Origin: Patiriisocius marinistellae
GTDB lineage: Bacteria > Bacteroidota > Bacteroidia > Flavobacteriales > Flavobacteriaceae
Assembly (NCBI RefSeq): GCF_009014635.1
Contig: NZ_BKCF01000003.1
Coordinates: 186,001 to 250,000 of the forward strand
DNA length: 64,000 bases
Reading direction: 5' to 3'
Positions 13,016 through 56,884 of the stretch are shown in pieces. Position 1 is the stretch's first letter, and each line of letters begins with the position of its first letter. Below the pieces are notes generated by a model. That model saw only the letters and a program-made list of their open reading frames with translations. It had not been told where the DNA came from and searched no databases. The position numbers and the translations under genes were made by a program.

Positions 13016-13639
13016 TTATAAAACCATTGAATTAAAAAAATTAAAGCTACGTACTGTCAATTTAGAAATCTAAAGTGATTTTATAGTTTCCGCAGGTTAT
13101 AAATTTTTATTTTTAATATATAGAATAGAAAGTAAGGTATATACTTAATCCTAATATTTTCTATTTTACATAATATAAATTATAGTACATTTTGTTTATT
13201 ATGTTAGTTTCATTGGTAAAACGTCTGTGTAGCTATAATTCTATATTATGTAAAATATCCCTGAATACTCGGTTAGTTTCATTAAATATTATCTGGGGGT
13301 CATTAAACTTTTTGGTTTTGGTCTAACTCGAAGATTCGTCGTAATGTACCATAATTGGCCGTTATGTAAAATTGCCGACTGCATTCGCTCTCGATTGCTT
13401 TTTTAAAATATTTAGGCGTTGCCATAAATTTTTAAAACACAATTTGCCATCGCTTGCAGCCGCACACAAAGCATATTTAGTTATTGTTTGAAATACTCAC
13501 ATATTCTGGGCAATTGTGCAGTAAAAGTTTTTTAAGAGAATTATGGATGGTTTCCCGTAAGAGTAAAAAATTTAAGCCACACATCCGCCAACGTAAATTT
13601 CTTTACACTTACTCGTGTAGTTCTTTTGTTTAAGATTTA
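13016..13639. repeat. Gene-free stretch with an intergenic repeat copy (family R2) and a long hairpin
   Basis: No coding sequence is seen in this 624-bp stretch. 13164-13185 and 13233-13251 form an imperfect inverted repeat (ACATAATATA-AATTATAG against CTATAATTCTATATTATGT) around a 47-base loop. From there to about 13440 the sequence aligns by eye with 20905-21090: shared TTATGTAAAATATCCC, GGGTCATTAAACT, and the block ending GCCGTTATGTAAAAT then CTCGATTGCTTTT. It is a diverged second copy of the right half of the repeat upstream of the four-gene operon. The remainder (13440-13639) contains a weakly similar segment (CCCGTAAGAG against CCACAAGAG at about 21247). Confidence 0.65.
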
Positions 13640-14347
13640 TTAAAAGATAAACTTGTTAGTTGAAATTTCCACAGAAAAAAAATCAATATCAAGAAAATTT
13701 GCCAAAGCTTTAAATTTTGGTCTTTCACCCAAATTAACTTCTATTAATTCTTTATGCGCCGTACATTTAGGAGTTACTAATACAGCCGACTTGACATTTA
13801 TCTTATTTACTTGAATGTTCCGAGCATTAAAGAAATCTATTATTAATTTATCCTTATCAATTATTTTAAAATAAGTATAACTTTCAAGGCTTGCTCGTAA
13901 TAATGTTTCCTTATTGCCTTCATTTTTAAGTTCTATTAAATATAAGGTTAAGCTTTCTTCATTAAATGATATTAAATCAATTTTTCCTAAACCTTTATCT
14001 TCTCTGGAGTTTTTTATAGGTACTTGATAATCTTTAATTAATCCTAAACCGTCCAATTTTAGTCCAGTAATTCTTTTTGCAAATTTTTCTTCATCTCGAT
14101 TGCTATTGTTATCAATTTTAAATTTGCTGTGATTATCTGTTTGATACGAAGCTAGCCTTGTTACAGTACTTAATTCCTCAAATAAATGTTTTTTTTGTAT
14201 TATCTCATTTGAAATAATTTCGGTAAATAATTCATAAGTATCCTTAGTTTTACCTTTCCAATTAACACAATTGCTTTTGTAAAGATTCTCAATATTCGAA
14301 AATTCCCAATTCAATTGCTTAACGGTTTCCAATCTTGTATAATTCAT
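13640..14347 (-). CDS. Putative PD-(D/E)XK-type nuclease
   Basis: 235 residues. The C-terminal half contains a restriction-endonuclease-like active site: GKIDLISFNEESLTLYLIELKNEG, with Asp about 17 residues before the ELK triplet, the classic D...(E/D)xK arrangement after a predicted beta hairpin. The N-terminal half is helical and unrecognised. It follows the 14357-14791 gene with a 9-bp gap on the same strand, so the two form a pair. The setting among accessory repeats suggests a restriction or defence role, which is inference; a nuclease-fold protein with another job is possible. Confidence 0.65.
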   Translation of the reverse strand: MNYTRLETVKQLNWEFSNIENLYKSNCVNWKGKTKDTYELFTEIISNEIIQKKHLFEELSTVTRLASYQTDNHSKFKIDNNSNRDEEKFAKRITGLKLDGLGLIKDYQVPIKNSREDKGLGKIDLISFNEESLTLYLIELKNEGNKETLLRASLESYTYFKIIDKDKLIIDFFNARNIQVNKINVKSAVLVTPKCTAHKELIEVNLGERPKFKALANFLDIDFFSVEISTNKFIF

Positions 14348-14356
14348 AATTTAAAT

Positions 14357-14791
14357 TTAATCAACACTACTATAGAAATTACTAATCTCAAACTTGGCAA
14401 GCTCAGGAATTGCCGATGTAAAAATTTTGATTTCCCAATTACTTAAATGCGGCATTATAGATACGTTATTCTCGAAGAATATTCTGTTATCTGGTTTTGC
14501 TAATGCTTTTGCTGGAATTAAATAGAAAATTCTTGGTTCATTCTCAATGATTAAAACTAAGCCAAGAAAACGATTTGAAGTAATTACTCCTAAATTTGAT
14601 TTAAGAATTTTGATAGTTTTTTCTTTGTCAAGATTTATTGATTGTAGATGTAGATTGATTTCTTTGCCCTTAGGACTAAAAATTATAAAATCTAGACCCT
14701 CTACTCTACTTTCGTCTGGAGTTATTGTAAACTTGGCTTTTTCAAATTCACTTTTAATGAAATCTAGTATTTGATATTTTGGCAGTTGCAT
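14357..14791 (-). CDS. Unknown protein paired with the PD-(D/E)XK-like nuclease
   Basis: 144 residues, soluble. The pattern GLDFIIFSPKGKEINLHLQSI followed by FLGLVLIIENEPRIFYLIPAKAL resembles the beta core of restriction-like proteins of the DUF4365 type (Asp, then a beta strand ending in xxQ), but the match is weak. It is the first gene of a two-gene minus-strand unit. A truncated second copy of its first 25 codons lies at 16808-16896, beyond the next gene, showing local duplication. Confidence 0.55.
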   Translation of the reverse strand: MQLPKYQILDFIKSEFEKAKFTITPDESRVEGLDFIIFSPKGKEINLHLQSINLDKEKTIKILKSNLGVITSNRFLGLVLIIENEPRIFYLIPAKALAKPDNRIFFENNVSIMPHLSNWEIKIFTSAIPELAKFEISNFYSSVD

Positions 14792-41713: not shown

Positions 41714-43603
41714 CTATCTAAGTGGTAATCTTATTTGTGATGGATATTTTTTTGAATGATGTACTTTGTTTTGAGCAATTACAGCCTCAGACTCATCATA
41801 ATTATTCCCTCCTGTATTAAGGTTTCTTGCAAAACGAGGAAAGTTACTACTTGAAATTTCAATTCTTATTTTGTGTCCCTTTTCAAAATAATTGCTCGTT
41901 GACATAGGTGTTAAATCTAATTTATAGACCTCGCCTTTTTCCATAAACACTTCTTTATCATAACCTTCTCTATAGCGTACGCGTTGAATGGTTTCATCTA
42001 AGTTATAAGCTGTTCCGTCTGGATATACATCAATCAATTTTATAGTAAAATCTGTGTCTTTTGCATTTGAGGATACATACAATTCTGTTTCAATAAAACC
42101 ACTTAACTCAACTCCTTCTTTTAAAACATCTGTGGTATACACTAAAATATCTGCACGTTCTTCCATTTCCTGTTGATTAAAAGCTCCACCTTCAACAGCA
42201 TTACCTGTACAGCATACGTTTCCACCTAAAGAAGTTACGGGATTCATAGGGTCATAAACAAAAGAGTCTGGATTATCTTTACTCGCTTGTTTAGTAGATA
42301 ATGTTCCACTACCCACTAAAGAGTTTGCATTTCCTTTACTGTTTAAGTAGTAAGTTGTCATTTTTGAATCTTCTGGCGGCCATTGTGTTGCTGCTTGCCA
42401 TTTATTACTCCCCATTGTATAGTATTGCACTCTTGGTGTTTTTTCCTTAAAGTTTGTCTTTTCATCTTTTAACCAAAAGTCAAACCAGTTAAATATTTGT
42501 TCTTCATAATTAAGACGAGCATCTCCCACGCTCCTTTGTCCTACCATAGTAGTATCTGTCGCCCGGGTATAACCACAATGCAATGTAGGAGCAATAACTA
42601 AATATTGATTATCTCTAACCGTTGCATCTTTAGTATTCTCCCTTACATGATTGAACAATGCAAGATTGGGAGTAATAGATACATCATACCATGAAGCAAA
42701 CCAAAAGCTAGGAACCCCTAATTCCATATCATCATGGTATAGACCACCTTCAAACCATTCAGGATCGTTAGGCTTACGGCGTACCATTTTGTCAAAAATT
42801 TCATGCTTACCATTTATATTTTTCAAAATATCTTGAATGGGAAGATGCGACAAGGCTTCCTTCATATCAATTGGTGGATTCTCTGGAGCTAGGTCATAAA
42901 AGCGAGAAATTCTTATTAAATCTTCTTGCGTTGCACCTTCTGGTATTCTAGGCTTAAATTTATCGTGTTCTACACCGTACAACCATGAAAAGAACAATAA
43001 TTGTTCAACTCCACCTCTATACCAGTTACCTTGTTCCATAATGTCACCCACACGTCCTACTCCTGCCCCAAAACCTTGTGGAACCATTGCTGCGTGAGAT
43101 GGGTGATCTAACGCCGCAACAGCCATTTGCCACTCTGCTGTAGAAGAGCAACCTATTGTACCTATTTTTCCGTTGGACCATGATTGATCTTTCATCCATG
43201 AAAAAGCGTCATAACCATCTGTCAAAGGCACACCTAAAATATCCCATTCGCCTTCAGAGTAATAGCGTCCACGTTCGTTTTGTACTACGTAAGCGTACCC
43301 TCTTTTTACCATTTCGTAGGCTTGTTTTGCCGTACGTGTTCTTTGTTCTCCATCACCCCATGAGTTAAAATTATATGGTGTACGAGAAAAAATTACTGGA
43401 ACTTTTCCAGTTCCTTTAGGTCTGTAGATATCTGTAGCTAAACGAATACCATCACGCATAGGCATCATTACTTTTTGGTCAATAATCGCTATTTCTTCCA
43501 GCTTTTTAAAAATATCTTCTTCTTCCTTAACCTGCTCTTGTGCAGTAAAGGATTGACAAACAATAAGTAATAAACAAAATGTAATGCTTTTAAAATGTTT
43601 CAT
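41714..43603 (-). CDS. Exported CocE/NonD family (X-Pro dipeptidyl-peptidase type) hydrolase
   Basis: 629 residues with a signal peptide ([22 protein letters not shown]). Alpha/beta-hydrolase core with [17 protein letters not shown] at the start, nucleophile in [13 protein letters not shown], and a C-terminal jelly-roll domain ([35 protein letters not shown]), the layout of cocaine esterase, alpha-amino acid ester hydrolase and glutaryl-7-ACA acylase. The catalytic His is probably in TLHCGYTRA. It cleaves esters or amides outside the cytoplasm; the substrate is unknown. Confidence 0.9.
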
Positions 43604-43681
43604 ATAAAAAGGGATAAATAATTAACGACATAAAGTTACTTAAAATTGATGTACAAACAGCTATCAGCTTCTAGATGTTTA

Positions 43682-43746
43682 ATATTTCCGAAGTTAAATA
43701 TAGTATGTGCAGTACACCTATTTCTTCATGGTATCTTCGGAAATAT
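43682..43746. repeat. Inverted pair of the CTTCGGAAAT motif
   Basis: ATATTTCCGAAG (43682-43693) and CTTCGGAAATAT (43735-43746) are exact reverse complements, 41 bases apart, between the hydrolase start and the end of the next gene. They can form a 12-bp stem. The same ten-base core recurs singly elsewhere in the window. Confidence 0.7.
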
Positions 43747-43805
43747 AATACGTTGAAAGAACTGCTAAAAATTAAAGACTTAAGTTTATTACCAATAAAA
43801 AATTA

Positions 43806-45368
43806 CTACCAATCAATTGGGAAATAATCTTTTAAGAATTTTCCAGACCAATGTTTACCAGTATTGATTCCATCTATTAAAGGGTCCATGACCCGTGCTG
43901 CTCCATCCACAATATCTAGCGGTGGTTGAAAATCATGTACCTCTACTTTTTTCTTTGACAACTCTGCAGGGTCTTCATCTGTAACCCATCCAGTATCTAC
44001 AGCGTTCATATAAATGCCAGATTTAGCAAATGTTGCTGCAGAGGTATGTGTAAGCATATTTAAGGCTGCTTTTGCCATATTTGTATGTGGATGCCTATCT
44101 TCTTTTTTAAAGCGATGAAATTTTCCTTCCATTGCCGAAACATTAATTATATGTTTCTTCCCTGTGTTTTCTTTCATCATTAAATTTGATAAACGATTGC
44201 ACAACACGAAAGGTGCGACGGCATTAACTAATTGTACTTCTACCATCTCTGTAGTTTCAATTTCACCAAGTTTTAAACGCCAGCTGTTTGTTTTACGTAA
44301 ATCAACTTGTTGTAAATCTGCATCAAGTTTACCTTCTGGAAACACTTCAGATGTTTGTAATGAGTTATCAAAACTATATGGTATTTGAGAAAGCGCTGCA
44401 GAGTTGCGTAATCCTATTCCAGGTTCTGGACCATGCCAAGTTACTGGAAGCACATTATTTTTACTCGTTTTTGAAGTATCAACACTTAAGTCTGATAATT
44501 CCTGTAAACAATCAATATGGTCATTTAATAATGGCTGAGCAAGTTTAGGCAATTGATCTACTGGTAACTTTTCATTTTCCATTAAATGAAAATAGAAACC
44601 TGATGGCCTCCTAACTGTTTGTGCTGCATTATTGATGAGAATGTCTAAACGATCATATTTTTGCTCTATATAGTTACAAAAAATTTCGACACTTGGAATG
44701 TGTCTTAAATCAAGCCCATGAATATGCAATCTATGGCACCATTGATTATAATCTTCTTCTTTTGAGAATCTAATAGCAGAATCTGCAGGGAAACGTGTTG
44801 TAGCAACAACAGTAGCTCCAGAGCGTAATAACATTAATGTAATGTGATATCCTATTTTTAATCTAGAACCTGTAATTACTGCTACCTGACCTTTTAAATC
44901 TGTAGTTTGAAAACGTTTAGCGTAATTTAAATCACCGCAGTCTGTACACATCGTATCATAAAAATGATGCAGTTTTGTGTACATCGTTTTACACACGTAA
45001 CAATTTCTTGGGGATTCTAACTCTAATGTATCTTCTGGAATAGCAGCTGCTGCTAATAACTTAGGTGCTACAAATAAAGTTGCTTCTCTTGCAGATCTAA
45101 TTCCTGTAGTTTTTCTTGCATGCTTATCTTTAGCAATCATTTTGCGCTTTGCTGCTTTCTTAGCATCTTTTTTTCTTCGCTTAAATTCGTCCCTATTAGG
45201 TCGAGACAATTTTCCTGAAACTTTTAACAATGCAGTTCTCTTTTCTTCAGAAAGCTCATAAATCTGGTTTGTGTCTGAAACTAAAAGTTCTAAAATTGAG
45301 ATAGTTGTATCTATTTCTTGAAGTGAAACTTTACGAACTTTTTCAGGTTTTTTTTGATTTTCAAGCAT
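43806..45368 (-). CDS. Zinc-ribbon plus SDR fusion protein
   Basis: 520 residues. A basic N-terminus (residues about 50-95, lysine- and arginine-rich) is followed by a four-cysteine zinc ribbon (NCYVCKTMY and MCTDCGDL, near 125-150) and an SDR Rossmann domain ([15 protein letters not shown] at about 165, [33 protein letters not shown]). The catalytic Tyr of Tyr-x3-Lys is replaced (TNMAK), and an insert of about 100 residues lies in mid-domain. Related proteins occur in bacteria and plants as a large SDR family without known substrate. Oxidoreductase activity by the normal mechanism is doubtful. Confidence 0.8.
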
Positions 45369-45683
45369 ATCTATAAAGCGTAAAGTTTTAACAAATGTGA
45401 TACAAATTTAATTTTAGCGAAGGTAAGTATACCTCTTTACAGAATTATAGAAAGCTTATTCTTTTTAATACATACCTATAGTTAAAATTTAACGCTTTTA
45501 AAATATTTATGAATGAAATTTAATTAAAGTAAAAGCAGTTTATATTGTTGCAATTTATTTGTATAAAGCACTGGTTTAGTGAACATTTAAAATGATTGCT
45601 AATCAATATTTATAAAAAAACCATATCTTAGTACACTCCCTTTTAAAATTTTCTTAGAAAGCTAACCACTAAATAATTTGATT
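45369..45683. other. Intergenic region upstream of the amidohydrolase-HNH operon
   Basis: 315 very AT-rich bases between divergent genes. It should hold the promoters of both. No exact TAnnTTTG element at suitable distance, repeat or small RNA could be picked out by eye. Confidence 0.4.
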
Positions 45684-47666
45684 ATGCCTAAAAAGCCAAT
45701 CATCAATGCTCACACACACACTTTTACAAGTAAATTTGTACCTCCATTTCTTGCAAAAACTATAGTTCCTTGGCCATTATATTTTTTGATTCATACTCGC
45801 TGGATTGTAGGCTTGGCACAACGCTATTATAGATGGAAACATGGACAAACGTTTCCAAAATACGACAAGAATAAAACTAAAGAAGAGCAAGAAATAGAAA
45901 AACAAAAAGCGTGGGATAAAATTTACGCCAGTCGCAGGAAAATGCGAAGTAAAACTATTTCTAAATTTAACTTTAAGGCAAATCGCATCATTTATATTCC
46001 GTGGCGGATTATTATTTTCTGGGTATCGTTAGTAGCGTTCTTTTATGTAGCCGAATTTTTAGGTTGGATTTTTGGAATAGATGAAGGTATTAATGACATT
46101 TTTACTAAAGTAAAAATATGGCTCACCTCCTATTATTTATATTTTGAATTTCCGGTCGTTTGGAAAGTAGTATGGACTCTAGCAGTTCTTATATTTATAA
46201 ACTGGAGTCGCAGAACTATCTGGTTTTTAATCAAAAAACTATTTCCATTTTTTCAAAGTATTTTAAGTCCTAACGGCTTAGCGTTATTAGAACGTTATTT
46301 ATTAATGGGGCGTTTTTCTTTTTATGGTACACAGAAAAAAGTAGCAGAGCGAGCACTTGACCAGCTCCCTCCTAATTCGCAAATGGTAATATTACCTATG
46401 GATATGGAATTTATGGGTGCCGGAAAATCAAAAATGACAAACGAAATACTAGCCACAAAAAATAATAATATTCCTAAAAACCCCACTGAGGATGATTGGA
46501 AAGACTCTGACTATCACGATACATTTAAATACCAAATGCGAGAACTTTGGGATTTCGTAAAAACAAAGCGCAATGGTAAAAATCCTAATGCATACCATCC
46601 TTTTCTATTTTTAGACCCCCGCCGCATAGAAAAAGAAGGTAACTCTTTTTTTAGCTATACAATTGTTGATGGCAAAATGAAGCTAAACGACTGCTATTTA
46701 AAAACATATATGGAAGACCGCAACTTTAGTGGTTTTAAAATTTACCCAGCCCTAGGCTATTATGTTTTCGATGAATCACTCTTACCTATTTGGCTATATG
46801 CTTCTCAAAACAATATTCCAATCATGACACACTGTGTGATTGGTACAATATATTTCCGAGGAAAAAAGATAAAAGAATGGAACTATCATCCTGTTTTCAA
46901 ACAATATTATAGAGACAAAAGACAACCTGAAAATCAACCTGAACCCATGGTGTTACCACAAGTAAAACCTGTTGATTTGCAATATAACTTTACTCACCCC
47001 ATGAATTATTTATGTTTACTTGAGGAAACCTTTTTGCGAGAATTAATAGGTAATGCAAAAGACAATAATTTAAAAACGTTGTTTGGATATACAGATAAGG
47101 AAACTCCCCTAACACAAACATTAAAAAATATAAAAATTTGTTTAGCACACTATGGTGGAGAGGAAGAATGGATTAAATATTTAGAAACAGATAGAGATGT
47201 TTATGCAAGAAGTTTGATAAAAAATCCCAATGATGGAATTGACTTTATGCAAAATGCTACTAATGAATTTTCTTGGAGCAAAATAAATAGTCTCTGGCAT
47301 GATACAGATTGGTACTCATTAATATCTAGTATATTGATGAACTATGATAATATGTACGCAGACCTTAGCTACATTATAAGTAAGCCATCAATTTATCCCT
47401 TATTAGTAGAAACACTTCGGAAAAGTGACAACTATGAAGCCCAGTTAGTTCATTACAACGCCGAACAGTCTAATAATAAAAAAGCATCGCATTTCAAAGG
47501 CCGAAATAGATTGCGAAGTCACATTTTATATGGTACTGATTTTTATGTGGTAAGAAATCATAATTCAGACAAAGACTTATACACAGAAACTCGCGCAGCC
47601 CTTGATGATGAAAGTTTTGATTTGATAGCAAGAGAGAACACATTTAATTATTTATCAAGAGATTAG
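45684..47666 (+). CDS. Membrane-inserted amidohydrolase-superfamily protein, first gene of the HNH operon
   Basis: 660 residues from the ATG at 45684 (a TTG two codons earlier is less likely). It begins with the metal-binding HxH of amidohydrolases (INAHTHTF, His10 and His12). Two hydrophobic segments follow, at about 104-130 and 155-180 (IIIFWVSLVAFFYVAEFLGW; VVWTLAVLIFINW). The rest of the TIM barrel comes after them: FLDPRR, GFKIYPALGYY with a candidate Lys ligand, IMTHC, ICLAHYGG and ILYGTDFYV with the final Asp. The metal-site order H-x-H, K, H, H, D is complete. The closest general type is amidohydrolase_2. The stop is two bases before the HNH-ATPase start. The substrate is unknown; a membrane-tethered nucleotide or signal hydrolase is possible (inference). 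Confidence 0.75.
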   Translation: MPKKPIINAHTHTFTSKFVPPFLAKTIVPWPLYFLIHTRWIVGLAQRYYRWKHGQTFPKYDKNKTKEEQEIEKQKAWDKIYASRRKMRSKTISKFNFKANRIIYIPWRIIIFWVSLVAFFYVAEFLGWIFGIDEGINDIFTKVKIWLTSYYLYFEFPVVWKVVWTLAVLIFINWSRRTIWFLIKKLFPFFQSILSPNGLALLERYLLMGRFSFYGTQKKVAERALDQLPPNSQMVILPMDMEFMGAGKSKMTNEILATKNNNIPKNPTEDDWKDSDYHDTFKYQMRELWDFVKTKRNGKNPNAYHPFLFLDPRRIEKEGNSFFSYTIVDGKMKLNDCYLKTYMEDRNFSGFKIYPALGYYVFDESLLPIWLYASQNNIPIMTHCVIGTIYFRGKKIKEWNYHPVFKQYYRDKRQPENQPEPMVLPQVKPVDLQYNFTHPMNYLCLLEETFLRELIGNAKDNNLKTLFGYTDKETPLTQTLKNIKICLAHYGGEEEWIKYLETDRDVYARSLIKNPNDGIDFMQNATNEFSWSKINSLWHDTDWYSLISSILMNYDNMYADLSYIISKPSIYPLLVETLRKSDNYEAQLVHYNAEQSNNKKASHFKGRNRLRSHILYGTDFYVVRNHNSDKDLYTETRAALDDESFDLIARENTFNYLSRD

Positions 47667-47668
47667 TT

Positions 47669-49909
47669 ATGCTATACATAAACCGAAACTTTGTAAATAA
47701 ACCTGAAGTATTTTCATCACATCCATTTAAAGATGAAATAAAAGTAATGACAGAATTTTATACCAAAAAAAACATAAAACAATCACGGTATAGAATAAAT
47801 TCAAGACTCATAGAAAGCCAATTATTAATTGAAAAATTAGTAAAATTATTTCATGGTAAATGTGCGTATTGTGAGTGCGAAATTTTTGAGAAATTCTTTA
47901 AAACAGCGCACCATAGGCCTACAGAAAATGCGATGAATTTAGACGGTAAAGTTTCAAAGGAGAGTTATTGGTGGTTAACTTATGAATGGAACAATCTATA
48001 TTTATTATGTGAACAATGTAGTTCAATGAAAAAAACTCGATTTCCTGTTGCGGGTAAGAGAGTTTCATATTTAGGCAATGTGCCTCAAGAAAAGGCTTTA
48101 TTAATTGATCCGTGCAAAAAAAAAGATTTTGATGACAAGCATTTTCAACTCTTTAAAAACGGTGAAATTCTTGGAATAACCGAAAGAGGAAAAATTACAA
48201 TCGAAATTTTAAACTTGAATAATGAGAACAGAAAACAAGAAAGAGCACGCAAAATTTTAGAAATGGCGGGAGCTATATCAATGGCTCGTGGAGCAGCAAA
48301 TCAAAATGATATAAATAATGCAAAAAGAGAATTAAACAAACTACTAAATAGTGAAGTAGCTTTTTTAAGTTACTCAATAGCCGCATTTAAACACTTTTCT
48401 TTAATAACTACAGAGAAAATCGAAAGCTCAAAAATTTACAACGCTATAATTGAAGAAATAGATAATAGCATTTCAGACTTTACATCTTGTATCACAATGA
48501 AGTCTAAAGTTGAACGGCCAAAAATTACTAAAAGACATAAAACAAAATCTAATAAACCTTTTCCTATAGTTTCACCCATTACATCATCTATTGATAAATT
48601 ATCAGATAATATTTTAAAAAGAGATTACTTCATGTCTGCTAAGCGCATTCAAAAAATTGAAATAGTCAATTTTAAAATCATCAAAAATTTGGTGTTAGAA
48701 TTCCCCAAATCAAAGCATAGAGAAGAGCCTTGGATGGTTCTTTTAGGCGAAAATGGCGCAGGTAAAAGCTCAGTATTACAAGCGGTAGCACTTACACTCG
48801 CTGGTGAAGAAAAAGCTAATAATTTAGAATTAAACGCAGCCCAATTTGTCAATAGAAATACGAGCTCAAAAACTGGATATGTAAGGGTTTATCTAGAAGG
48901 GGTTTCAGACTTTCTTGAACTTAAATTTAATAAAGACTCTCCTAAATTTACTTCAAATTATGATGCTCCTAAAGTTATTCTATTAGCATTTGGATCTACT
49001 AGACTTATGAGTGACACGGTTGATTACGAAACAAATAAAAATCTTATTAATCTAAGTAATTTGTTTAATCCATTTGCAACATTACCAAATATTGAAGGTT
49101 GGTTGGGTGACCCAAAAAAAGTAAGTGTTGCACAATTTGACCAGATTGCTATAGCACTTAAAAACGTCTTACAGCTTCCAGACAATAAATTAATATATCG
49201 TAGAAAAACTAAAGAAGGTACTTACGAACTTTTTATAAAAATAAACAAACAGAAACAAGGAATTACTGTTAAGGAATTAAGTGCTGGATACAAATCCATA
49301 ATTGCAATGACTATAAATATAATTAGAGAAATACTCAACACATGGGATAGTTTTAAAATTGCTGAAGGCATTGTTCTTGTTGACGAAATAGGCGTTCACC
49401 TCCACCCTAAATGGAAACTTCAAATCATTAGTACGTTACGAGAGATTTTCCCTGCAATGAACTTTATAATTACCACACATGAGCCTTTGTGTTTACGTGG
49501 TATCAATGAAGGGGAAGTAGCACTTATGAAAATGGATGAAAACAATCAAGTAATTGCCTTAATGGATCTCCCTTCTCCTAAAGCACTAACCATTGAACAA
49601 TTAATAACATCAAAATTCTTTGGATTAATAACCTCATTTGATCCAGAAATAGAAGCACAACTTAATTCTTTTTATTTACTGAAATCTAAATTAAACCCTA
49701 CACCTAACGAGATAGAAAAATTAGAAACATTACGTAGAAATTTAGAACACATTAATGTCATTGATAATGAATCAAATTTAGAAGTTTCTAAAAAATCAAA
49801 AATTAATTTAGCTGCAAGTTCTTTAGATGCTGGGTGGATTAATAACCCTAAACATCAAGAAGACTTAAAACAAAAAATCAAAGCGATTTGGGATAAGACA
49901 ACTTCGTAA
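47669..49909 (+). CDS. HNH nuclease-AAA ATPase fusion (PtuB-PtuA-like)
   Basis: 746 residues. The N-terminal region holds an HNH/zinc-finger nuclease of the TIGR02646/PtuB type: Cys65 and Cys68 (GKCAYCECE), TAHHRPTEN, then WNNLYLLCEQCSSMKKTRFPV with a second Cys pair. From Met322 an ABC/SMC-type AAA_21 ATPase follows: Walker A LGENGAGKSS (about 360), signature LSAGYKS (about 537), Walker B IVLVDEIGVHLHP (about 567) and switch His in ITTHEP. In Septu, PtuA (ATPase) and PtuB (HNH) are separate proteins; here they are fused in reversed order. It starts two bases after the amidohydrolase and ends 11 bp before another HNH gene. Met322 could also serve as an internal start producing the ATPase alone. 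Confidence 0.85.
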   Translation: MLYINRNFVNKPEVFSSHPFKDEIKVMTEFYTKKNIKQSRYRINSRLIESQLLIEKLVKLFHGKCAYCECEIFEKFFKTAHHRPTENAMNLDGKVSKESYWWLTYEWNNLYLLCEQCSSMKKTRFPVAGKRVSYLGNVPQEKALLIDPCKKKDFDDKHFQLFKNGEILGITERGKITIEILNLNNENRKQERARKILEMAGAISMARGAANQNDINNAKRELNKLLNSEVAFLSYSIAAFKHFSLITTEKIESSKIYNAIIEEIDNSISDFTSCITMKSKVERPKITKRHKTKSNKPFPIVSPITSSIDKLSDNILKRDYFMSAKRIQKIEIVNFKIIKNLVLEFPKSKHREEPWMVLLGENGAGKSSVLQAVALTLAGEEKANNLELNAAQFVNRNTSSKTGYVRVYLEGVSDFLELKFNKDSPKFTSNYDAPKVILLAFGSTRLMSDTVDYETNKNLINLSNLFNPFATLPNIEGWLGDPKKVSVAQFDQIAIALKNVLQLPDNKLIYRRKTKEGTYELFIKINKQKQGITVKELSAGYKSIIAMTINIIREILNTWDSFKIAEGIVLVDEIGVHLHPKWKLQIISTLREIFPAMNFIITTHEPLCLRGINEGEVALMKMDENNQVIALMDLPSPKALTIEQLITSKFFGLITSFDPEIEAQLNSFYLLKSKLNPTPNEIEKLETLRRNLEHINVIDNESNLEVSKKSKINLAASSLDAGWINNPKHQEDLKQKIKAIWDKTTS

Positions 49910-49920
49910 AATATAATATT

Positions 49921-50889
49921 ATGATTTTGATAACTAAGAACACAAAAAACCCAAACATTTCAGTATATAAAAAGAAGAGATGGAAAGGCCTTGACGGAAA
50001 TAAAACAACATTAGCAATTCGAGATTTTAATAAATCTATATTGCATTATACAAATCCTGCAAACTTTAAAGACAACAAAAAATTAACACGTAAAGGTTTT
50101 ACGTATGAGGCCTATTCACATAAAGACACAAAAAAAGCATTAAAGAAAATTTTTAAAAGTAAGTGTGCCTATTGTGAGAGTTTTATTATGCATATTGAAC
50201 CAGGTGATATAGAACACTTTAGACCAAAAGCAGAAGTACACACTAAAAATGGAGAAGTTTTAATTCCTGGGTATTACTGGTTAGGCGCAGATTGGAAAAA
50301 CTTATTATTATCTTGTATAAAATGCAATAGATCAAATAACGAAGCTATAAATTTTTCGGATGGAGAAATCCAAAATATGGGAAAAGCTAATCATTTTCCA
50401 CTCTCTGATGAGTCTAAAAGAGTTCGATTACACACAGAAGATATTTCAATTGAAGATGAGTTTGTTCAAATTATAAACCCTTGTAGAGAAGATCCAGAAG
50501 CACATCTTATTTTTGAAGATAATGGTCAAGTAACAGCAAAAGATGAAAAAGGAGAGAAATCTATTGCCGTATATGGGCTTTTTAGAGCAGATCTCGTTTT
50601 AAAAAGATCACAAGTAAGTAGGGATCTAAGTTCCTCACTTACAGATCTCGTATTAATAATTCAACAACTTGATCAACTAGAAGCAGCGAATATTAGTACA
50701 GATATCATCTTAAAATTACTACGCGTTAATCTAGAAAATTTAAAATTTGCTTTTCAAATAGATGCGGAATACCTAGCATTAAAAAGACAAAAGCTAAAAC
50801 GCTTTATAAAACAAAATCCTATTAGTAATCAAAAATTAACAGAAATGGGTATTCCGCTATTAAACTTCTTAAATAGTAATACAATTTAG
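49921..50889 (+). CDS. HNH-type nuclease, third gene of the operon
   Basis: 322 residues. Zinc/HNH core: Cys82 and Cys85 (SKCAYCESF), IEHFRPKAE with His99, then WKNLLLSCIKCNRSNNEA, the TIGR02646-like arrangement C..C-H-N-C..C. The C-terminal half is helical and probably binds the partner. It resembles PtuB and retron-associated HNH proteins and is related in domain, but not closely in sequence, to the HNH part of the preceding gene. The 11-bp spacing indicates one transcript. Confidence 0.85.
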   Translation: MILITKNTKNPNISVYKKKRWKGLDGNKTTLAIRDFNKSILHYTNPANFKDNKKLTRKGFTYEAYSHKDTKKALKKIFKSKCAYCESFIMHIEPGDIEHFRPKAEVHTKNGEVLIPGYYWLGADWKNLLLSCIKCNRSNNEAINFSDGEIQNMGKANHFPLSDESKRVRLHTEDISIEDEFVQIINPCREDPEAHLIFEDNGQVTAKDEKGEKSIAVYGLFRADLVLKRSQVSRDLSSSLTDLVLIIQQLDQLEAANISTDIILKLLRVNLENLKFAFQIDAEYLALKRQKLKRFIKQNPISNQKLTEMGIPLLNFLNSNTI

Positions 50890-51116
50890 ATAAATAATAT
50901 AGAGGAATTTATTAGATGCTAAATATTTTATTCAATATTGATCCTTTAAATATTTAAAATTATTTCTTCGGAAATATTATAATAATTACACCTCTTTAAT
51001 AAAAATCTCACTTTAGAAAAAATTAACGCTTGTTAAGAAAATATTGATACTGGATTAACTCAAATAATTTTGATCGCTGTGTAAATTTGAAATGAACATA
51101 AAAAATTACACATATA
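50890..51116. other. Intergenic stretch with one CTTCGGAAAT motif
   Basis: 227 AT-rich bases after the HNH operon. CTTCGGAAATATTA lies at 50966-50979. No clear terminator or coding sequence was seen. Confidence 0.45.
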
Positions 51117-51941
51117 ATGATTAAAACTATTACAAATTTTAAATTTAAAGTTGCATTTATTTTTATTTCAATATTAACATCATCTTCAATATATGCACAA
51201 AGCAATTGTGATATTTACTGTCCAAATGATTTTGCTGTTGTAGCAAATTCAAATGGCGAATATGTAGTTGAAGATTATTTTGCAAATAACTTAGTAACTT
51301 TAGAGGAATGCAATCCAGGTGCTGTTGTCTCTCAATCACCAGCTCCTGGGACAATAATGGGCTTAGGAGAATTTGAAGTGACAATGACTGTTACTTCTGG
51401 TGGAGAAACAGACGATTGTGATTTTGACATTTCAGTAATTGAAGAACAAAGTGGTGATTGTGATTTTGACTGCCCAGATGATCAATTAGGTACAACAGAT
51501 AGCGCCGGAAACTATGCAATACCTAATTTTGCCACAAATGGTGCTCTTGTAGTAACAGGCAACTGTGGAAATTTTACTTTTGAGCAAGACCCTGTTGCAG
51601 GTACTATTGTAACCGCGGGTATTTATAGTATTTCATTATCAGCAGAGTCTGAGCCTGGTACAAGTAGTATAAGTTGTGGTTTCAATTTAACTGTTGATGA
51701 AACATTAAATGCAAATAGTTTTTCAATAAATACTTTTACAGTTTATCCAAACCCTGCCTCTAATAAAATAAATTTTTCAAATGAAGTAGAAAACGCCACA
51801 TTAGCTTCTCTCACTGGAAAAATAATATACCAAACGAAAATGACTAATTCAATTGATGTTAGTTATTTAGATAAAGGGATTTATATTTTAAAAATTGAAA
51901 ATGGAAATGAATCATTAATTAAAAAAATTGTTATTAATTAA
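51117..51941 (+). CDS. Secreted HYR-like protein with T9SS type A sorting domain
   Basis: 274 residues: signal peptide MIKTITNFKFKVAFIFISILTSSSIYAQS; two similar repeats of about 80 residues, each starting with a Cys-x3-Cys pattern (CDIYCPNDF, CDFDCPDDQ) and resembling HYR/Ig-like modules (SPAPGTIMGLGEFEV against DPVAGTIVTAGIYSI); and a C-terminal Por secretion sorting domain (FTVYPNPASNKINF to KGIYILKIENGNESLIKKIVI). It would be exported by Sec and then the type IX system to the surface or medium. Function unknown; probably a small adhesin or matrix protein. Confidence 0.85.
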   Translation: MIKTITNFKFKVAFIFISILTSSSIYAQSNCDIYCPNDFAVVANSNGEYVVEDYFANNLVTLEECNPGAVVSQSPAPGTIMGLGEFEVTMTVTSGGETDDCDFDISVIEEQSGDCDFDCPDDQLGTTDSAGNYAIPNFATNGALVVTGNCGNFTFEQDPVAGTIVTAGIYSISLSAESEPGTSSISCGFNLTVDETLNANSFSINTFTVYPNPASNKINFSNEVENATLASLTGKIIYQTKMTNSIDVSYLDKGIYILKIENGNESLIKKIVIN

Positions 51942-51978
51942 TTTTCTACTAATCTTTAAAAATTCATTTTTCATTAAT

Positions 51979-52015
51979 GAAAACCAACTTACAATACGAC
52001 TGTAGGTTGGTTTTC
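51979..52015. terminator. Rho-independent terminator after the T9SS protein
   Basis: GAAAACCAAC and TACA pair with TGTA and GTTGGTTTTC, leaving a 7-base loop and one mismatch; a TCTTT run follows. Confidence 0.85.
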
Positions 52016-52043
52016 TCTTTAAATTAAATTCATGTTAAAAAAG

Positions 52044-52073
52044 AATGAACATTCATTTTTATAAATATCTTTG
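52044..52073 (+). promoter_or_regulatory. Operator dyad and -7 element of the TetR operon
   Basis: 52044-52057 is an inverted repeat, AATGAA-CA-TTCATT, typical of TetR operators. 52066-52073 reads TATCTTTG, an exact -7 element. The dyad lies where the -33 element should be, 34 bases before the TetR ATG, so binding would block RNA polymerase (inference). Confidence 0.6.
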
Positions 52074-52091
52074 TAACGTAAATTAAATACA

Positions 52092-52670
52092 ATGGCTAAA
52101 CTTCAAAAAAGTATAGATAAGCGTAATGAATTAATAAAGGCAACTATTGAGTTGGTAAACAACAATGGTTTTCACGCAACACCTATGAGTAAAATTGCTA
52201 AAATGGCGAATGTATCACCTGCAACAATCTATTTGTATTTTGAAAACAAACAAGACTTAGTTAATAAGACTTATATTGAAGTAAAAGAAAAATATACAAA
52301 ATATGCTTTTGAAACTTACGAAAGCTCAATGCCTGTTAAAAAAGGTTTTGAAATAATATGGAAACGTATTGCAGAATTTAAATTAAAAGAATGCGAGAAT
52401 GCCATGTTTTTAGCACAATGTGATAATACTCCCACTATCGATGAAACGAGTAGACAGGAAGGTATTAAACATTTACAGCCCCTACTCGACCTCTGGGCAC
52501 GTGGTAAAAATGAAGGGTTAATAAAACCAGTCTCAGACTATATTTTATATGCATATGCTATAAACCCACTATCCTTTTTAATGATTACTCAAAAAAGAGG
52601 AGCATTTACATTAGACAAAACACATTTAGAAGAAGCATATCAATCTGCTTGGAATAGTATTAAAATTTAA
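52092..52670 (+). CDS. TetR/AcrR-family repressor of the detoxification operon
   Basis: 192 residues. N-terminal helix-turn-helix FHATPMSKIAKMANVSPATIYLYFENKQDLVNKTY (about 20-55), then a helical ligand domain. It is the first gene of a run with four oxidoreductase or DJ-1 genes spaced 16-30 bp apart and is preceded by a dyad overlapping its promoter, so it probably autoregulates the operon and responds to an electrophile or quinone (inference). Confidence 0.9.
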   Translation: MAKLQKSIDKRNELIKATIELVNNNGFHATPMSKIAKMANVSPATIYLYFENKQDLVNKTYIEVKEKYTKYAFETYESSMPVKKGFEIIWKRIAEFKLKECENAMFLAQCDNTPTIDETSRQEGIKHLQPLLDLWARGKNEGLIKPVSDYILYAYAINPLSFLMITQKRGAFTLDKTHLEEAYQSAWNSIKI

Positions 52671-52694
52671 ATAAAAAACGAAAAAAACAAATAA

Positions 52695-53327
52695 ATGGAA
52701 TTGATAGAAAAGTTAAATTGGAGATACGCTGCTAAGTCTATGAGTGGAAAAGTAGTCCCTGAAGATAAAATAGAACGTATTTTAGAAGCTGCACGTTTAG
52801 CTCCTACATCATCAGGTTTACAGCCTTTTGAAATATTTGTTGTAAAAAACCAAGGTATTAAAGAGCAAATTAGACCAGTTGCTTGGAATCAGTCTGTTAT
52901 CACAGAAAGTTCACATCTACTAGTTTTTGCTGCATGGGACACTTATACTGCTGACCGAATTAATTATATGTTTGATTTAACAAATAAGATTCGTGGTTTT
53001 GAAAACGAAGGTTGGGAAAATTACAGACAACAATTATTAAGCTCGTATCCACAACGTGATGCTGAAGAAAATTTCAATCATGCAGCAAAGCAGGCATATA
53101 TTGCTTTAGGTACTGCTATGATCGCAGCTGCTGGCGAAAAAGTGGATAGTACTCCCATGGAGGGATTTGATGCTGATGCAGTTGATAAAATTTTAGGCCT
53201 ACGTGAAAAAGGTTTACGTAGTGCTGTGTTATTACCGTTAGGATATAGAAATGAAGATGAAGATTGGTTAGTAAATCTTGTTAAGGTTAGAAGACCTATG
53301 GACGAGATTGTAACCGTTATTGAATAA
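52695..53327 (+). CDS. Nitroreductase-family NAD(P)H oxidoreductase (NfsB-like)
   Basis: 210 residues with MELIEKLNWRYAAKSM at the start, as in flavobacterial NfsB-like proteins, RLAPTSSGLQPFEIFVV for FMN binding, AKQAYIALGTAMIAAAGEKVDSTPMEGF and VLLPLGYR. It reduces nitroaromatics, quinones or enals. It follows the TetR gene by 24 bp. It shares a family but not close sequence with the nitroreductase at 7399-8028. Confidence 0.9.
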   Translation: MELIEKLNWRYAAKSMSGKVVPEDKIERILEAARLAPTSSGLQPFEIFVVKNQGIKEQIRPVAWNQSVITESSHLLVFAAWDTYTADRINYMFDLTNKIRGFENEGWENYRQQLLSSYPQRDAEENFNHAAKQAYIALGTAMIAAAGEKVDSTPMEGFDADAVDKILGLREKGLRSAVLLPLGYRNEDEDWLVNLVKVRRPMDEIVTVIE

Positions 53328-53346
53328 ATTAAAAATGAAAATGAAC

Positions 53347-54342
53347 ATGAAAACGATACAATTAAAAAGTAGACCTGAAGGAAAACCAACACTTTCAAAT
53401 TTCGAATTTGTAGAAGAAGATAAATCGTTAACTATATCTGATGGAGAGATTCTTCTAGAAGCAGCTTATGTTTCTGTAGATCCATATTTAAGAGGACGAA
53501 TGAACGATGCAAAATCTTATGTTCCGCCTTTTAAATTAAACGAACCTGTACACTCTGGTGTTGTAGCTAAAGTTTTAGAATCTAAAAACGAAAAATTCCA
53601 AGTTGGAGATTACGTTTCTGGCATGCTAAACTGGTCTAGACAACAAGTGTCTGATGGCGAAGGCTTAAATAAAGTAGATTCAGAAAAAGCACCTTTAAGC
53701 ACCTATTTGGGCGTTTTAGGCATGACAGGTTTAACGGCTTATTTAGGCTTTACCGAAATAGGAAAACCTAAAGAAGGTGAAACTATAGTAGTCTCAGGAG
53801 CTGCAGGAGCAGTTGGTAGTGTTGTTGGTCAAATAGCAAAAATACTAGGCTTACGCGTTATAGGTATTGCTGGTACAGATGAAAAAATCGAGATGCTAAA
53901 AAGCAAATTTGGTTTTGATGAAGGTATCAATTACAACACCACAAAAGACATGAAATCTGCCATTGCAGAAGCTGCGCCAGATGGTGTAGATGTGTATTTT
54001 GATAATGTTGGAGGACCAATTTCAGATGCTGTTTTATTCAGTATTAATCGCTTTGCAAGAATTATAATTTGTGGTGCCATTTCGGTTTATAATGAAACGG
54101 AAATACCTAAAAGCATAAGCGTACAGCCATTTTTAATAAAAAACAGCGCGTTAATGCAAGGTTTTATAGTAAGTAATTATGCTGAAAAATTCCCAGAAGC
54201 GATTCAAAAATTATCAGGTTGGTTAGCTGAAGAAAAATTAACCTATACCGAAACTATAGTTGATGGTTTCGATAATATCCCTCAAGCTTTTATAGATTTA
54301 TTTGAAGGTAAAAACAAAGGGAAAATGATAGTAAAAATATAA
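53347..54342 (+). CDS. NADP-dependent MDR oxidoreductase (prostaglandin reductase/alkenal reductase type)
   Basis: 331 residues from the ATG at 53347; in-frame ATGs at 53335 and 53341 are alternatives. Zinc-free medium-chain reductase: SVDPYLRGRMNDAKSY substrate motif, Rossmann loop VVSGAAGAVGSVVGQIAK, and DVYFDNVGGPISDAVL, the signature of the leukotriene B4 dehydrogenase/CurA-like group. It reduces the double bond of alpha,beta-unsaturated carbonyls, fitting an electrophile-defence operon. Confidence 0.9.
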   Translation: MKTIQLKSRPEGKPTLSNFEFVEEDKSLTISDGEILLEAAYVSVDPYLRGRMNDAKSYVPPFKLNEPVHSGVVAKVLESKNEKFQVGDYVSGMLNWSRQQVSDGEGLNKVDSEKAPLSTYLGVLGMTGLTAYLGFTEIGKPKEGETIVVSGAAGAVGSVVGQIAKILGLRVIGIAGTDEKIEMLKSKFGFDEGINYNTTKDMKSAIAEAAPDGVDVYFDNVGGPISDAVLFSINRFARIIICGAISVYNETEIPKSISVQPFLIKNSALMQGFIVSNYAEKFPEAIQKLSGWLAEEKLTYTETIVDGFDNIPQAFIDLFEGKNKGKMIVKI

Positions 54343-54364
54343 TAACCAAAAAAAGAAAAAGAAG

Positions 54365-55522
54365 ATGAACAATTTTGAATTTAAAAACCCAACCAAAATT
54401 ATTTTTGGAAAGGATACAATAGAACAATTAAAAAATGAAATTCCTGCAGATGCTAAAGTATTATTACTTTATGGTGGAGGAAGTATTAAGAAAAACGGAA
54501 TCTACGACCAAGTAAAAACCGCTTTGGCAAACGTTGATGTGAACGAGTTTGGAGGTATTCCTGCAAATCCAGAATACGCAACATTAATGGACGCTTTAAA
54601 AGTTATTAAAGATGAAAACATTACGTATTTACTAGCAGTTGGTGGTGGATCTGTAATTGACGGAACTAAATTTTTATCTGCAGCTGCAGTTTTTGAAGGC
54701 GATACACCTTGGGATATTTTAACTAAAAATGTTAGAACAGAAAAAGGAATGCCTTTTGGAACCGTTTTAACATTACCAGCAACAGGATCTGAAATGAATT
54801 CTGGAGCTGTAATTACACGTGAAGAAACTAAAGAAAAATTAGCAATGGGTGGACCTGGTTTATTTCCAGTGTTTTCAATATTAGACCCACAAGTTATTAC
54901 ATCTATTCCAGAACGTCAATTAGCAAATGGTTTAACAGATGCTTTTACACACGTTTTAGAACAATACATGACGTATCCAATTGGAGCTTTATTGCAAGAT
55001 CGTTTTGCAGAAAGTATATTACAAACATTAGTAGAAGTTGCACCAACAGTATTAAAAGATCCAACAAATTACCAAGCAGCATCTAACTTTATGTGGAGTT
55101 GCACAATGGCGTTAAATGGACTAATTCAAAAAGGAGTACCAGGAGATTGGGCAATCCACATGATGGGTCACGAGTTAACAGCTTTATTTGGAATAGATCA
55201 CGCACGTACTTTGGCAGTTATAACACCAAGTCATTACAAGTATAATTTTGAAGCTAAAAAAGAAAAATTAGCGCAATATGGTGAACGTGTTTGGAACATT
55301 ACTGAAGGTAGTACAGACGATAAAGCCTATGCTGCAATAGAAAAAACTACTGCTTTTTTCCATGAGTTAGGCATTGATACAAAATTATCTGACTACACTA
55401 AAGATTACGAAGGAACTGCAGAAGAAGTTGCTAAACGTTTTAAAACTAGAGGTTGGAAACTAGGTGAACGTCAAGCTTTAATGCCTGAAGATGCAGAGAA
55501 AATTGTAAAAATGGCATACTAA
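54365..55522 (+). CDS. Iron-containing alcohol dehydrogenase, YqhD-like
   Basis: 385 residues of the group III metal-dependent ADH family. NADP site GGGSIKKNG and AVGGGSVIDGTKF; metal ligands Asp and His in NGLTDAFTHVLEQY and two His in IHMMGHELTALFGIDHARTL. YqhD reduces reactive aldehydes such as malondialdehyde, acrolein and methylglyoxal with NADPH, in line with its operon partners. Confidence 0.93.
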   Translation: MNNFEFKNPTKIIFGKDTIEQLKNEIPADAKVLLLYGGGSIKKNGIYDQVKTALANVDVNEFGGIPANPEYATLMDALKVIKDENITYLLAVGGGSVIDGTKFLSAAAVFEGDTPWDILTKNVRTEKGMPFGTVLTLPATGSEMNSGAVITREETKEKLAMGGPGLFPVFSILDPQVITSIPERQLANGLTDAFTHVLEQYMTYPIGALLQDRFAESILQTLVEVAPTVLKDPTNYQAASNFMWSCTMALNGLIQKGVPGDWAIHMMGHELTALFGIDHARTLAVITPSHYKYNFEAKKEKLAQYGERVWNITEGSTDDKAYAAIEKTTAFFHELGIDTKLSDYTKDYEGTAEEVAKRFKTRGWKLGERQALMPEDAEKIVKMAY

Positions 55523-55538
55523 ATTTATAATTATTTAA

Positions 55539-56345
55539 ATGAAAATAATAAAAACGGTAGCCTTAGCGCTAACTATAATTACAGCTTCAAGTTGTAAAGA
55601 CAAAACAAACAACACTACTTCTGAAAACGTTTCAGAAGATAAAACAGAACTAAAAAAAGATAAAACTATGAACGTATTATTTGTATTAACATCTCACGAC
55701 AAATTAGGAGATACAGGAAAAAAAACAGGATTTTGGGTTGAAGAATTCGCAAATCCATATTACACATTATTAGACAAAGGCTCAAAAATTACTATTGCAA
55801 CTCCAAATGGTGGTGCTGCACCAATAGATCCAAGTAGTGATTCTCCAGATGCTGCAACAGAAGATACTGAGCGTTACAATAAAGACGAAGCAACAAAAGC
55901 ATTAATCGCAAATACGCACAAGTTAGCTGATATGAATGCAGACGATTTTGATGCTGTATTTTATCCTGGAGGTCATGGACCATTATGGGATTTAGCAAAC
56001 GATAAAACATCTATTGCTTTAATCGAAAAGTTTAATACTCAAGAGAAGCCTGTAGCATTTGTATGCCACGCTCCTGCTGCATTAAAAGGTGTAAAAGGAA
56101 CAGATGGAGAACCATTAGTAAAAGGTAAAAAAGTAACTGGTTTTACAAATACCGAAGAAGATACTGTTGGTTTAACAGACGTTGTTCCATTTTTAGTGGA
56201 AGACATGTTAAATGAAAATGGAGGAATCTACTCTAAAAAAGAAGATTGGGCAGCTTACGCTATTCAAGATGGTAATTTAATTACAGGACAAAATCCTGCA
56301 TCGTCTGAGTTGGTTGCAGAAAAATTATTAGAGAGCTTAAAATAG
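55539..56345 (+). CDS. DJ-1/PfpI (Hsp31-like) protein with lipoprotein signal
   Basis: 268 residues. The N-terminus is a lipoprotein signal with lipobox ITASSC (Cys19), then a charged linker, then at residue 44 MNVLFVLTSHDKLGD the normal start of a DJ-1 domain. The domain has nucleophile Cys in AFVCHAPAAL, a preceding YPGGHGPLWDL and acidic residues typical of Hsp31/glyoxalase III. It would convert methylglyoxal to lactate or repair glycated targets. The position at the end of the aldehyde-detoxification operon fits. Membrane anchoring of this usually cytoplasmic family is noteworthy; translation from Met44 (55668) would yield a soluble form. Confidence 0.88.
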   Translation: MKIIKTVALALTIITASSCKDKTNNTTSENVSEDKTELKKDKTMNVLFVLTSHDKLGDTGKKTGFWVEEFANPYYTLLDKGSKITIATPNGGAAPIDPSSDSPDAATEDTERYNKDEATKALIANTHKLADMNADDFDAVFYPGGHGPLWDLANDKTSIALIEKFNTQEKPVAFVCHAPAALKGVKGTDGEPLVKGKKVTGFTNTEEDTVGLTDVVPFLVEDMLNENGGIYSKKEDWAAYAIQDGNLITGQNPASSELVAEKLLESLK

Positions 56346-56358
56346 TTTATTAATAAAA

Positions 56359-56400
56359 AACCCAATTAGAATAGATTTTAAAATCTGTTCTAATTGGGTT
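56359..56400. terminator. Bidirectional rho-independent terminator
   Basis: A 13-bp perfect outer stem AACCCAATTAGAA/TTCTAATTGGGTT and an inner AGATTTT/AAAATCT stem, flanked by A and T-rich tracts, between the convergent ends of the detoxification operon and the cold-shock gene. Confidence 0.85.
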
Positions 56401-56422
56401 AAATAGTTTATAGAGCAATGTA

Positions 56423-56884
56423 TTACTTCTCGAGTTTCACTTTTACTGCATTCATACCTCTTTGACCTTTTTCAAGTTCAAATGATACTTTATTACCTTC
56501 TGTAATCTCGTCAATTAAACCACTTACGTGACAAAAATATTTTTGTTGATCTGCTCCATCTACGATAAAACCAAATCCTTTTGAAGTGTCAAAAAAACTA
56601 ACTGTACCTATACGTACTGGATTAAATTTATCCTCGTCAGTTTCTTCTTTTGGAGGAATTCCCAAAACAATATCTTCTGCTTCAACTTCAACTTTCTGTG
56701 AAGGATCTGGCGGTGTGTCCACTAGATTTCCATTAAAGTCTACATAAGCAAATTCAATTCCTGTGCTTCCGTTTTCTTCTTTTTCAAGTTTGCGGGCTTC
56801 CATTTTCTTCCGCTTATCTTCACGCTTTTTTAAACGTTTTTTCTCTTTTTCACTCTTACCAAATGTTTGTTGGGATCTTGCCAT
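56423..56884 (-). CDS. Cold-shock-domain protein with basic N-terminal extension
   Basis: 153 residues. The N-terminus (1-40) is almost wholly Lys, Arg and Glu (KSEKEKKRLKKREDKRKK). The C-terminal part is a cold-shock domain: IGTVSFFDTSKGFGFIV with the RNP1-like KGFGFI motif, and KYFCHVSGLIDEITEGNKVSFELEKGQRGMNAVKV; RNP2 is altered (FCHVSG). It binds single-stranded RNA or DNA. It lies 61 bp after the DEAD-box gene on the same strand, an RNA-remodelling pair as seen in many flavobacteria. Confidence 0.9.
   Translation of the reverse strand: MARSQQTFGKSEKEKKRLKKREDKRKKMEARKLEKEENGSTGIEFAYVDFNGNLVDTPPDPSQKVEVEAEDIVLGIPPKEETDEDKFNPVRIGTVSFFDTSKGFGFIVDGADQQKYFCHVSGLIDEITEGNKVSFELEKGQRGMNAVKVKLEK

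Follow-up and report, generated by a model that had tools for sequence, protein, structure and literature searches.

Does the three-gene operon in a 64,000-nucleotide stretch of the Patiriisocius marinistellae genome (contig NZ_BKCF01000003.1, positions 186,001 to 250,000; hereafter the window) encode a new defense system, or a familiar one beside a stray gene? The operon encodes, in order, a predicted membrane-anchored amidohydrolase-fold protein (AH), a PtuA-type ATPase with a fused N-terminal HNH-like domain (gene 2) and a PtuB-type HNH nuclease (gene 3). The Septu-like core of genes 2 and 3 is already known, and the new part is AH, a conserved membrane amidohydrolase common to other immune-type loci. 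Taken together, the operon is probably an anti-invader system in which a Septu-like core is joined by a recruited membrane enzyme. The three-gene arrangement exceeds chance because the same gene order recurs in other genomes, and a coincidental neighborhood was rejected on the recurrence of AH with PtuA/PtuB-like genes across AH loci. The gene calls confirmed the layout given in the initial annotation, namely three plus-strand open reading frames (ORFs) spaced by 2 bp and then 11 bp between unrelated neighbors (Table 1).

Table 1 Features of the operon, in window coordinates
Feature	Position	Strand	Length or extent	Basis
AH, predicted membrane-anchored amidohydrolase-fold protein	45684..47666	+	660 aa from ATG; alternative TTG start at 45678	
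AH hydrophobic segment pair, predicted transmembrane hairpin	46008..46199	+	residues 109-127 and 154-172	hydropathy, AlphaFold2 model
Gene 2, PtuA-type ATPase carrying a fused HNH-like domain at its N-terminus	47669..49909	+	746 aa	PADLOC, Pfam, Walker motifs
Gene 2 HNH-like N-terminal domain	47669..48397	+	residues 1-243	PDLC00339 match to residues 10-243, alignments
Gene 3, PtuB-type HNH nuclease	49921..50889	+	322 aa	PADLOC PDLC00319, alignments

A Septu-like core with one altered and one intact HNH domain

Gene 2 matched the PADLOC PtuA1 model PDLC00292 over its full length (residues 1-743, E 5.8e-180), and its N-terminal part also matched PtuB1 models. The HNH-like N-terminus is followed by an SMC/ABC-type ATPase, with AAA_15 among the Pfam matches, a Walker A motif GENGAGKS and a Walker B motif IVLVDEIG. 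Gene 3 matched the PtuB1 model full length (E 1e-80), and profile searches of solved structures with genes 2 and 3 returned PtuA (8ee4) and retron-type PtuA and PtuB chains. As judged from their sequences, genes 2 and 3 are a Septu-type pair of a known kind, because both match existing PADLOC Septu models full length; the PADLOC PtuA models already cover the fused HNH-ATPase form. The Septu resemblance of an HNH-ATPase fusion with a separate HNH gene, proposed in the initial annotation, was thus borne out. The accompanying idea of a new system holds for AH, an unlisted partner with zero matches in PADLOC and NCBIfam profile scans, but not for the ATPase and HNH genes, which match listed models and also occur as a pair without AH. 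The converse possibility, that the locus is a listed Septu subtype, is half true in that PtuA and PtuB are listed and AH is not.

With Septu type I the operon shares an ATPase and an adjacent HNH nuclease with an intact motif, both covered full length by PtuA1 and PtuB1, but it departs from the two-gene layout of separate ATPase and HNH: its PtuA carries an altered HNH-like domain of its own, and the operon opens with a gene for a membrane amidohydrolase. On account of this domain fusion and the extra leading gene, we regard the operon as a Septu-like variant rather than canonical Septu. Retron type I-A (reverse transcriptase-PtuA-PtuB, or Septu type II) has homologous effectors, whereas the window operon has AH as the extra gene instead of a reverse transcriptase. 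A Pfam scan of the flanking genes gave no reverse transcriptase, and no Rfam family reached gathering score within 43500-52700, although an unlisted msr-msd may be present. A literature search of titles and abstract openings, with most subscription papers and preprints outside its reach, returned no amidohydrolase in Septu-like or canu-like operons. In the accessible part of PMC8565338, Septu variants are described without an amidohydrolase gene, and PMC7159879 contains neither 'amidohydrolase' nor MBL (metallo-β-lactamase) or TIM-barrel terms.

The two HNH domains of the operon have diverged in their active sites. The motif of gene 3 is intact (E98-H99, N127, C132..C135-N136), and the E-H, N and C-N residues are kept in all 20 aligned stand-alone HNH proteins, four of them from unfused pairs. 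The fused domain was scored on the acidic residue, catalytic His and last Asn in 24 copies, whose rows are not independent; at least one of the three residues was changed in 18 copies and the catalytic His was replaced in 11. In the window His81 is retained, but Ala80 and Ser118 occupy altered positions. The zinc Cys and middle Asn residues are retained in the 16 copies of a 16-copy alignment. By group, the fused domain is altered in 9/10 AH-linked, 8/8 plasmid and 1/6 AH-free Flavobacteriales copies; because the last are mostly intact, decay is common and not universal. A link between decay and AH was dropped, as all eight plasmid copies are altered yet lack this AH.

The proposal that the HNH domains cut was not supported, and activity of both domains in this operon was rejected on the altered fused active site. 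With the stand-alone HNH intact and the fused HNH commonly altered, gene 3 is likely to do the cutting, and the fused domain would serve as its structural partner. We take H99 and N127 of gene 3 to correspond to H75 and N91 of PtuB from Septu EcB88, as mapped by motif without alignment to the EcB88 protein. According to the accessible part of the EcB88 report, mutation of H75 or N91 abolished defense (PMC13096335). The portions available of two papers describe cleavage of tRNA-Tyr by Septu and retron PtuAB, and of nicked DNA by another Septu (PMC13096335, PMC11555353).

AH as a predicted membrane amidohydrolase

AH of the window scored 13.8 bits against Pfam Amidohydro_2, below the cut-off of 26.4 that was passed by two AH relatives tested. 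Its AlphaFold2 model has a mean predicted local distance difference test score (pLDDT) of 90.5 and a predicted template-modeling score (pTM) of 0.85, and places strands at residues 7-12 and 233-237, with ~220 mainly helical residues inserted between the first two barrel strands. The best Foldseek matches were amidohydrolase 4dzi, ACMSD and others of the branch, LigJ and di-iron oxygenases among them; a profile search of solved structures gave chance-level matches only, with no credible chain. In an alignment of 75 homologs, H10 and H12 are kept in 74/74 rows with a residue (one row is gapped), and K352, H383, H489 and D619 in 75/75. The series HxH, Lys, His, His, Asp is the ligand pattern of the amidohydrolase superfamily. 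This pattern of putative metal-ligand residues, the modeled barrel and the fold matches assign AH to the Amidohydro_2 branch of that superfamily. AH shares the pattern and weak fold matches with Amidohydro_2/ACMSD-like enzymes, but differs from them by its insert after the first strand and its two hydrophobic segments. Hydrolase, decarboxylase and oxygenase relatives are all present in the fold, and the chemistry of AH may be any of these.

The analogy to RADAR drawn in the initial annotation did not survive this comparison. RADAR (RdrA/RdrB) combines an ATPase with an amidohydrolase-superfamily fold, RdrB being ADA-like, and the window likewise places an ATPase beside such a fold; however, AH lies outside the adenosine-deaminase branch and the window ATPase is PtuA-type. 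Kinship was rejected, as the best folds were ACMSD/Amidohydro_2 and deaminases appeared only at E 0.11 and worse among the 50 Foldseek matches listed (AMP deaminase, 0.11).

The same early reading of gene 1 as an amidohydrolase with two membrane segments was supported by the HxH motif, the weak amidohydrolase fold matches and hydropathy. Among the 75 AH proteins, 58 have two strongly hydrophobic segments, one has none, ten have one and six have three or more; a looser rule finds two segments in 69. In those 69 the average net charge is +3.7 and +3.0 in the flanks and -0.2 in the loop, and in 60 of them the loop is less positive than either flank. Because the flanks are the more positive, the sequences suggest that AH forms a membrane hairpin with its barrel on the cytoplasm side.

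AH beside PtuA/PtuB-like genes and other immune-type genes

The recurrence of the arrangement was assessed in 81 AH loci, comprising the window and the best 80 of 123 relatives by similarity from a genome-contig scan, with neighbor genes called by a simple longest-ORF script. PtuA/PtuB-like genes stand at +1/+2 of AH in 12 of these loci, window included. Ten have the fused form (window, L012-L016, L020, L027, L038 and L068) and two the unfused form (L025 and L086). In 11 of the 12 all genes are on one strand; in L027 the PtuA/PtuB-like genes lie on the strand opposite AH. A further locus, L043, has them at +3/+4 on the other strand. Altogether, 24 of the 26 PtuA/PtuB-like genes in AH loci are at exactly +1/+2, and 459 of 1061 neighbor genes overall lie within three genes. 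As a side observation, L027 has an M19 dipeptidase-like gene (12754-14385, minus strand; Pfam, this locus only) ahead of its fused ATPase, in the place that gene 1 takes in the window, and an M19 dipeptidase-like protein lies within three genes of AH in L037, L069 and L073.

Across nine loci, the pairwise distances of AH and the ATPase agree (r 0.645, a value reached in 3 of 20000 permutations), as do those of AH and the HNH protein (r 0.538; 24 of 20000); the agreement is far tighter for the two nuclease-side genes (r 0.946). A 22-row tree places the AH-linked fused ATPases in three regions, but its well-supported branches force one origin only, and L015 is a long, unsure branch. On the 75-row AH tree, from which L020 was left out as partial, the fused-Septu label requires four changes, at least three of them forced by well-supported branches, and the shuffled mean is 8.6.

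AH also stands beside other defense-type gene sets, whose families were named from one representative per cluster. A caspase lies within three genes of AH in nine loci (Pfam C14, E 5e-7 for one member), and cassettes of a caspase, an uncharacterized protein, an LmuA-like MBL and AH were observed in L021-L024, L041, L054, L057, L060 and L066 (Bacteroidota). The caspase-linked MBL representative matches LmuA (1.2e-81) and Avs1a (2.3e-50), and this MBL type occurs in 12 AH loci in total. By their caspase and MBL genes these sets look canu-like, whereas the window operon has no caspase or MBL among its three genes (Pfam, PADLOC). As far as the canu account is accessible, its caspase-nuclease and protease-MBL pairs are, like the sets described here, modules acquired by unrelated immune systems, a canu locus of Klebsiella protects against phage T4, and AH is not mentioned (PMC12799240).

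A protein with an HExxH motif (kept in 11/11) lies within three genes of AH in nine loci, and a second MBL type (HxHxDH in 10/10) likewise in nine; Pfam gave no match for one HExxH protein tested. The two occur as a pair beside AH in L028, L031, L047, L071, L075, L084, L087 and L182 and, by analogy to published trypsin-MBL and caspase-MBL pairs, are possibly a further protease-gated nuclease type. Smaller partner groups include Endonuclease_NS with trypsin or CHAT, SIR2-EAD11, PLD with MBL, M19 peptidase and cell-wall hydrolases. AH directly follows a large ATPase gene in L042, L045 and L185; these ATPases belong to one cluster, with a Pfam AAA_16 match for L045, and L042 and L045 are near copies. 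In L052 (6747-9734), right after a SIR2-EAD11 gene, the N-terminal part of AH is joined in frame to an nSTAND1 ATPase (E 4.2e-32); the AH frame is interrupted after the fusion and resumes in a second ORF (5597-6739). This fusion is a single gene from a metagenome-assembled genome (MAG). Cell-wall hydrolase-like genes stand beside AH in L058, L063, L065 and L183, and a contractile tail-sheath gene in L030 (7013-8485). Among five further AH loci from genome samples, one has a convergent HExxH and MBL neighbor, one a STAND-type neighbor, one a short protein that reads as cell-wall-amidase-like and one no obvious partner, and one duplicates a known locus.

Because related bacteria place AH beside several other antivirus-type gene sets, it is a good candidate for a hitherto undescribed component that bacterial immune systems share.

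Reading of the operon and its alternatives

In the reading that we consider probable, the PtuA-type ATPase would assemble, sense infection and trigger activation. Its HNH-like domain, with an altered active site, would probably dock or dimerize with the HNH domain of gene 3, which once released would cleave nucleic acid (tRNA or DNA). AH would be an inner-membrane-anchored, cytoplasm-facing, metal-dependent enzyme of the amidohydrolase fold, serving as a second, interchangeable effector or amplifier whose substrate at the membrane would be a small molecule or lipid. If so, a membrane-chemistry output would be added to a tRNA- or DNA-cutting defense, and Septu architecture may include an altered HNH copy, carried within the ATPase, that pairs with an intact HNH protein. 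A broader proposal can be made tentatively, and we give it somewhat less than even credence: AH would found a new, portable class of immune enzyme, a membrane-anchored effector of the amidohydrolase fold that was repeatedly recruited in Bacteroidota by mutually unrelated sensors, namely Septu-like ATPases, caspase-MBL and metalloprotease-MBL pairs, and STAND ATPases. The window would then be one instance, in which one ATPase with a pseudo-HNH nuclease dock runs a nuclease arm and a membrane-chemistry arm, and one enzyme family would link several separate immune systems, as the protease-MBL nuclease pair does (PMC12799240).

Several observations weigh against the main reading. The defense role of AH has neighbor genes alone as its basis, and many AH loci have no obvious operon partner. 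In the order sample AH adjoins only one of seven fused ATPases, that of the window, and the core therefore does not need AH; retention of AH beside the ATPase gene holds for the 12 AH loci and fails for the other six fused ATPases. The fused HNH domain is intact in 5/6 sampled Flavobacteriales copies without AH and in 1/10 with it. The Foldseek matches of AH have a best E of 4.1e-4, two at or below 0.001, and query template-modeling scores of 0.22-0.29 across the top ten; the ATPase structure model (pLDDT 67.6) is too poor to use. A tblastn search of plasmids and phages with AH gave no match at E 1e-5. Finally, retron Eco4 PtuAB did not deplete tRNA in the part of the study available (PMC11555353), and because of this the target of gene 3 cannot be inferred from kinship.

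The absence of AH from those six order genomes, and its occurrence alone or with other partners, would also be expected if the operon were a plain Septu type I variant with AH an unrelated or merely co-mobile neighbor. We regard this as unlikely, given the 12 adjacent loci, the near-invariant +1/+2 placement and the several places at which the fused label appears on the AH tree. A minor but real possibility is that AH regulates the nuclease module or acts as its antidote instead of serving as an effector, for instance by destroying a signal or by holding the toxic complex to the membrane before infection. Its place beside several nuclease or protease-nuclease modules is what would be expected of a shared control factor, and retron Eco7 PtuAB is toxic unless restrained, according to the accessible text (PMC11555353); yet the same core exists without AH in other genomes, and in the nSTAND1-AH fusion, a single MAG gene with an interrupted AH frame, AH looks more like an output domain. 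It is improbable that the operon lies outside immunity, with AH a metabolic membrane enzyme and the locus serving stress or inter-bacterial functions. Judged by their titles, most PDB entries related by the amidohydrolase fold are metabolic enzymes, and AH genes in some loci adjoin cell-wall hydrolase genes or lack conserved partners, but the partners of AH are repeatedly known defense families and its presence is patchy. A Septu-like core with a recruited membrane enzyme therefore remains the reading that we prefer.

Modularity of the core and the variable site of the operon

Genome searches scored few candidates per genome (two each for the ATPase search of order genomes), and the counts given here are lower bounds. 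Full-length fused ATPases were found in at least seven of 395 genomes of the order. Five of the six AH-free ones follow genes for a DNA methyltransferase, a HerA-like ATPase and a ~446-aa protein (families named from L098), and this set is another module using the Septu-like core. The five are L097, L098, L115, L117 and L118, with the fused HNH-ATPase and HNH genes behind the set and the fused HNH intact in 4/5; the sixth, L116, has neither AH nor the methyltransferase set. The ATPase also matched 30 plasmid records at E 1e-20. Among nine examined, a Priestia plasmid has the HNH-ATPase/HNH pair near a retron-type reverse transcriptase gene, a Rhizobium plasmid (L163, 1562-4968) has PLD-like and membrane alpha/beta-hydrolase-like genes upstream of the fused pair, and the remaining records have varied neighbors. 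The name of the hydrolase-like gene in L163, for which Pfam gave no family, is a reading of its sequence. AH is thus one of several neighbors of the Septu-like core, and both halves are modular.

An amidohydrolase gene upstream of a fused ATPase in Rhizobium L166 was considered as a cross-phylum AH arrangement and not upheld; it is a lead only. Its kinship to AH shows only in a profile comparison (hhalign probability 68, E 4.9e-5), it stands 849 bp from the ATPase, and six other records examined have no HNH-ATPase beside an amidohydrolase of this type. The Rhizobium-type Amidohydro_2 protein in L166 and L171-L176 is preceded by an endonuclease/exonuclease/phosphatase gene in 3/7 records, and these plasmid regions carry ubiquitin-like, PLD, NucS or HNH-ATPase genes.

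AH presence is patchy. It was found in at least 4 of 330 genomes of the phylum and in 3 of 59 relatives, the window's own included, and in none of 10 other same-genus genomes, six of which are less than 90% complete. A scan of viral contigs returned two distant, shorter AH relatives with 22-25% identity. Promoter- and terminator-like sites are no more numerous than in shuffles. ORF calls and a Pfam scan identified both neighbors as unrelated to the three genes, namely a divergent SDR-type gene 309-315 bp to the left and, 227 bp to the right, a gene whose product bears a type IX secretion tail. The SDR gene is present in 8/10 same-genus genomes, one copy being 57% identical with stops. The site of the operon is variable, because the SDR gene and a gene ~11 kb from it in the window (45368-56423) are only ~1.1 kb apart in the same-genus genome L161.

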